Source: Nitrospiria bacterium
GTDB taxonomy: Bacteria; Nitrospirota; Nitrospiria; SBBL01; JAADHI01
Direction of reading: 5' to 3'
Assembly (NCBI GenBank): GCA_945787655.1
Contig: CALZIJ010000013.1
Coordinates: forward strand, 1-37,797
Length of the DNA stretch: 37,797 nucleotides
Shown: positions 12,357 to 13,403 of the stretch, one piece after another
How positions within the stretch are numbered: the first letter of the stretch is position 1
How the letters are laid out: each line of letters begins with the position of its first letter
Position numbers and translations under genes: made by a program
Notes under the pieces: generated by a model
Database searches by the model: none
Seen by the model: only the letters and a program-made list of their open reading frames with translations
Told to the model about the DNA's origin: nothing

Positions 12357-13403
12357 ATGGGGCTAACAAACAGTATTTTGGGATGGTTTTCCAGCGACCT
12401 GGCCATTGATTTGGGAACGGCCAATACGCTGGTTTACTCCCGTGGAAAAGGCATCATGATTAACGAACCGTCTGTCGTGGCAATCGAAAAACGTTCAGAA
12501 AAAGTCGTGGCCATTGGAACAGAAGCGAAAAGGATGCTTGGCCGAACGCCGGGTAATATTATTGCCATTCGCCCAATGCGGGACGGGGTCATTGCCGACT
12601 TTGAAATTGCGGAGAAGATGCTCAGCTATTTTATCCGTAAAGCCCATAACCGTACCACTTTTGTCAGGCCCAGAGTCATTATCGGAATTCCCTCAAAAAT
12701 TACCCAGGTGGAGCAGCGGGCTGTCCGGGATTCGGCTGAATTAGCCGGGGCGCGGGAAGTCTATCTCATTGAGCAACCGATTGCCGCCGCTATCGGTGCG
12801 GGCATGCCGATTTCTGAACCCTCTGGAAACATGGTGGTGGACATTGGGGGAGGCACGACTGATATAGCGGTGATTTCGTTGGCCGGGATTGTGTATTCCG
12901 AATCCGTCAAGACCGCCGGCGATAAAATGGATGAGGCGATTTCAGGGTATATCAAACGTAAATATAATTTGCTGATCGGAGATCATATGGCCGAGCAGAT
13001 CAAGTTCGAGATTGGCTCTGCCTATCCTTTGAAAGAAAAACGAACCCATATGATCAAGGGAAGAGACCTGATTTCCGGGATTCCCAAAACCCTGGTGATC
13101 GAAGACAGCGAAATTCGGGAAGCCCTTTCCGGGCCAATCTCTATTATTGTCAACGCCATTCGAATTGCCCTTGAAAATACGCCGCCGGAGCTTGCCGGAG
13201 ATATTATCGACCACGGCATCGTCCTGGCAGGCGGCGGGGCCCGGCTCTGAGGTCTCGATACACGGGTTAGAGAAGAAACGAACCTGCCGATTATTACAGT
13301 TGATAACCCGCTGACAACGGTTGTACTGGGAACAGGGAAGGCCTTGGATCAACTCAGCCTCCTTAGAAAAATAGCCATTGCATCACAATCCGCCACCAGA
13401 TAA
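12357..13403 (+). pseudogene. mreB: Rod shape-determining protein MreB with in-frame TGA at 13248-13250
   Basis: Canonical MreB through [11 protein letters not shown], then TGA, then same-frame GLDTRVREETNLPIITVDNPLTTVVLGTGKALDQLSLLRKIAIASQSATR* ending at 13403. Confidence 0.9.

Follow-up and report, generated by a model that had tools for sequence, protein, structure and literature searches.

An in-frame TGA ahead of a conserved C-terminus in mreB of a Nitrospiria draft genome, probably a consensus error

The window analysed here, i.e., the whole stretch of 37,797 nucleotides from a Nitrospiria bacterium (GCA_945787655.1), is the entire contig C13 (CALZIJ010000013.1) of a 3.04-Mb assembly in 168 contigs that is 98.3% complete and 0.8% contaminated. 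Its mreB frame (12357-13403, plus strand) holds no full-length open reading frame for MreB; instead, an in-frame TGA stands at codon 298, 50 residues ahead of the normal MreB end, and is followed in frame by 50 codons that begin GLDTRV and end SATR, up to a TAA at the usual place (Table 1). Read through the TGA, the protein has 348 aa and matches Pfam MreB_Mbl (PF06723) at 478.7 bits over profile positions 2-324 of 327, a whole-length match obtained only with the TGA read through; residues 11-337 of the same protein also align with MreB chains of known structure (E 8.5e-121). Downstream lie mreC, mreD, mrdA and rodA, in the mreBCD-mrdA-rodA order and collinear with relatives. The locus thus resembles known MreB systems (PF06723; structures 4CZE and 1JCE) in its end-to-end domain match and gene order, and differs from known MreB proteins in the TGA at codon 298 and in an Arg at position 296, where those have Leu. 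Elsewhere in the window, one protein of 712 aa (23241-25379) carries two sets of nitrite/sulphite reductase domains, and its gene is followed by tusA and a dihydroorotate dehydrogenase-like gene.

Table 1. Features of the mreB region, in window positions
Feature	Position	Strand	Basis or remark
mreB open part, 297 codons plus in-frame TGA	12357..13250	+	Pfam MreB_Mbl match
Codon 296, CGG (Arg); second anomaly near the stop	13242..13244	+	Homologue alignment
In-frame TGA, codon 298	13248..13250	+	Same-genus relatives have AGG, AGA or CGT (Arg)
MreB C-terminal 50 codons plus TAA	13251..13403	+	Conserved with intact relatives; first 31 codons without in-frame start
mreC, intact	13497..14351	+	Profile match and relatives
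mreD, intact	14367..14903	+	Weak Pfam match; full-length alignment in relatives
mrdA (PBP2), intact	14815..16746	+	Mechanical ORF; true start probably internal
rodA, intact	16520..17851	+	Mechanical ORF; true start probably internal

In the three same-genus genomes with the region assembled, mreB is open and full-length, with protein identities of 94-97%; in a fourth (G002), just the last 36 MreB residues were found, at a contig end. Codon 298 reads AGG, AGA or CGT in the genus, i.e., Arg throughout, and beyond the genus Lys or Arg predominates at the position, alongside a few His, Gln, Pro, Ala and Thr. A stop at this position was absent from all compared loci except the window's own copies. 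The best-matching named relatives belong to uncultured Nitrospirota. In a same-order relative (G017:C1:2921597-2922629), mreB appears broken into three overlapping pieces that differ in frame, and a second mreB and a helicase of that genome are likewise in pieces; these fragmented genes look like frameshift errors of assembly.

Two codons upstream of the stop, codon 296 is CGG (Arg), a position at which the homologues carry Leu in 100 of 109 rows (a few of them same-genome duplicates), Met in 8 and Gln in 1. Across the whole MreB protein, residues seen in no homologue occur only at positions 231, 296 and 298, such that two of the three lineage-unique positions fall within three codons. As a post hoc observation, this clustering, located at a GC-rich spot, may point to one local cause, e.g., a local consensus error; two genuine substitutions close together are a possible alternative. 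Compensating small insertions or deletions at 13240-13250, in place of two substitutions, were tried by hand, and none restores the family motif.

These comparisons confirm the observation made in an earlier, sequence-only reading and support its interpretation in part; correct are an in-frame TGA at an Arg position of mreB with the C-terminus preserved downstream, seen here in the frame itself and in the Arg codons obtained from the alignment with relatives that it had called for, and intact mreC, mreD, mrdA and rodA, found here to be syntenic with relatives. Its expectation of a normal full length was correct, its count of about 347 aa being one short. The single CGA-to-TGA change that it offered is possible, but it is no sole route: a single step would likewise turn AGA into TGA, and because the genus relatives carry AGG, AGA and CGT, the ancestral codon is not narrowable to CGA. 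That reading overlooked the lineage-unique L296R change beside the stop.

Compared with the intact mreB genes of the three same-genus genomes, the 50-residue tail shows 94-98% identity to theirs, so its continuation beyond the stop is more than chance. Over codons 299-346 there are 28 synonymous and 1 non-synonymous differences from G003 (pN/pS 0.013, vs 0.031 for codons 1-295 in the same comparison), 29.5 and 4.5 from G001, and 34 and 4 from G004; tail pN/pS spans 0.013-0.055, similar to codons 1-295, with synonymous sites near saturation. By this measure strong purifying selection acts on the tail, and the relaxed constraint expected of a pseudogene was not seen, though a very young pseudogene may still be compatible with these values. 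Given near-saturation at synonymous sites, far more amino-acid changes would be expected had the tail escaped selection over any sizeable part of this branch; the stop would therefore have to be very young, read through, or missing from the real cells. A chimeric C-terminus was ruled out, as nucleotide identity to relatives is equal upstream and downstream of the stop.

Two genome searches suggested by the sequence-only reading, for other TGA-split genes and for a second mreB, were both carried out. A scan of 1.23 Mb (41% of the genome) for stops with coding-like sequence on both sides in the same frame and no near start codon, a design that is blind to frameshifts, yielded the mreB TGA as the only stop judged to lie inside one gene; the remaining candidates listed, judged by eye, were gene ends with the next gene in the same frame, antisense, or low-scoring stretches. 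Across the whole genome, all 43 ABC-ATPase matches were free of stops. No intact second mreB was found in the genome, the sole other strong match being a terminal fragment of contig C56 (C56:3-758, minus strand; L137, G000:C56, 1-758). This MreB-like fragment does not include the nucleotide-binding segment of the N-terminus, is cut short by the contig end at MreB residue 270, has a GC content of 54% vs 47% for the genome, and among the loci compared is nearest to deltaproteobacterial or myxobacterial MreB (up to 77%), not to Nitrospirota MreB. The helicase gene adjoining it is native, and none of the three helicase loci compared from the same genus has an mreB match next to it. On account of its missing N-terminus, contig-end break, GC content and foreign affinity, it was rejected as a backup mreB and is probably either foreign DNA or the product of chimeric assembly at the contig end.

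The options listed in the sequence-only reading, i.e., sequencing error, recent nonsense mutation and readthrough, hold as the ones to be weighed. Readthrough, in which a real UGA is decoded by a near-cognate tRNA (e.g., tRNA-Trp or a tRNA-Arg) often enough to yield sufficient full-length MreB, would fit the conservation of the tail at the amino-acid level, and in E. coli near-cognate tRNAs are known to read through UGA at a basal level (PMC13092985). It is nonetheless unlikely here: all relatives compared have sense codons at the site, where a programmed readthrough would have kept the stop, so there is no conserved programme; RF2 is present; the case is isolated; and a search of the genome for specific readthrough machinery found none. 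A tRNA-Trp with a 4-bp anticodon stem has been linked to UGA readthrough (PMC13092985), but the single tRNA-Trp of this genome has anticodon CCA and a complete 5-bp stem (GCGGT/ACCGC). Systems with UGA reassignment, or with readthrough by such a tRNA-Trp, likewise have a UGA in frame within a conserved gene; unlike in them, a single gene is affected here, tRNA-Trp is normal, UGA is a stop elsewhere, and the relatives have Arg, not Trp. We consider it very improbable that a real TGA with leaky UGA decoding sets the level of the essential cytoskeletal protein MreB. A literature search on mreB with an in-frame UGA gave no result. A split gene, in which the tail would be a small gene of its own or a C-terminal fragment made by re-initiation and assembling with the 297-aa part, would account for the conservation of both parts, yet the 31 codons after the stop contain no in-frame ATG, GTG or TTG and the gene is one continuous gene in relatives, which makes this more improbable still. 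Selenocysteine or genome-wide UGA reassignment, to which the in-frame TGA lends itself and nothing further, has next to no probability: of 546 long open frames, 170 terminate in TGA, the 41 tRNA genes found and typed are all ordinary with no UCA anticodon among them, RF2 is kept, and this 98% complete genome gave no tRNA-Sec match above the gathering score and no SelB match above the cut-off, the relatives moreover having Arg rather than Cys or Sec. Both are therefore unsupported, and the view of the sequence-only reading that genome-wide code reassignment is unlikely agrees with these counts.

A real and very recent nonsense mutation, either fixed or a strain variant, that cuts MreB to 297 aa is a possible, if doubtful, explanation. 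It takes the assembled sequence as given, the adjacent L296R could reflect relaxed selection or a joint mutational event, and a decay-free tail is also what a young mutation predicts; cells that survive the loss of shape tolerate nonsense mutations of this kind. Such a mutation would remove the last 50 residues, including the conserved EETNLP and NPLTTVVLGTGKAL segments, probably leaving MreB non-functional and cell shape altered. Against it, MreB is an essential protein for several rod-shaped bacteria (PMC4630621), mreC, mreD, mrdA and rodA are without decay, no intact second mreB was found that would make the loss tolerable, and the lack of other such splits in the scanned 41% of the genome argues against general gene decay. 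We favour a consensus (assembly or sequencing) error in this draft metagenome-type assembly as the probable source of the TGA, pointed to by the strong constraint on the tail, the clustering of positions 296 and 298, the open mreB of three relatives, and the intact, collinear shape operon, and also by the essentiality of MreB in several rods and the search that found no intact second copy. A wrong base would have entered where an otherwise normal mreB has a short GC-rich stretch, a reading that we infer over a very recent real mutation. Against consensus error, the absence of a similar broken gene from the scanned 1.23 Mb indicates that the assembly is not generally error-rich, although by our estimate one such stop in 1.23 Mb would fit a low rate of consensus errors. 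GG-ending motifs (GGG, CGG, AGG) dominate Illumina substitution errors (PMC4787001), but no such motif directly precedes sites 296 or 298 on either strand; this context does not fit that error type, and no specific error mechanism is supported.

Like other isolated premature stops of draft or metagenome-assembled genomes, the present case combines one substitution-type interruption of a conserved gene with an intact tail and intact relatives, and nothing specific sets it apart save the clustering with L296R. Where a draft environmental genome shows a lone stop in an essential gene, caution is due, and the reads should be checked before biology is built upon it. If the TGA is a consensus error, living cells would make an ordinary full-length MreB that works with the products of the adjacent intact mreC-mreD-mrdA-rodA elongation genes. 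A real stop would make this lineage a natural experiment in living with MreB truncated and the other elongation genes intact.
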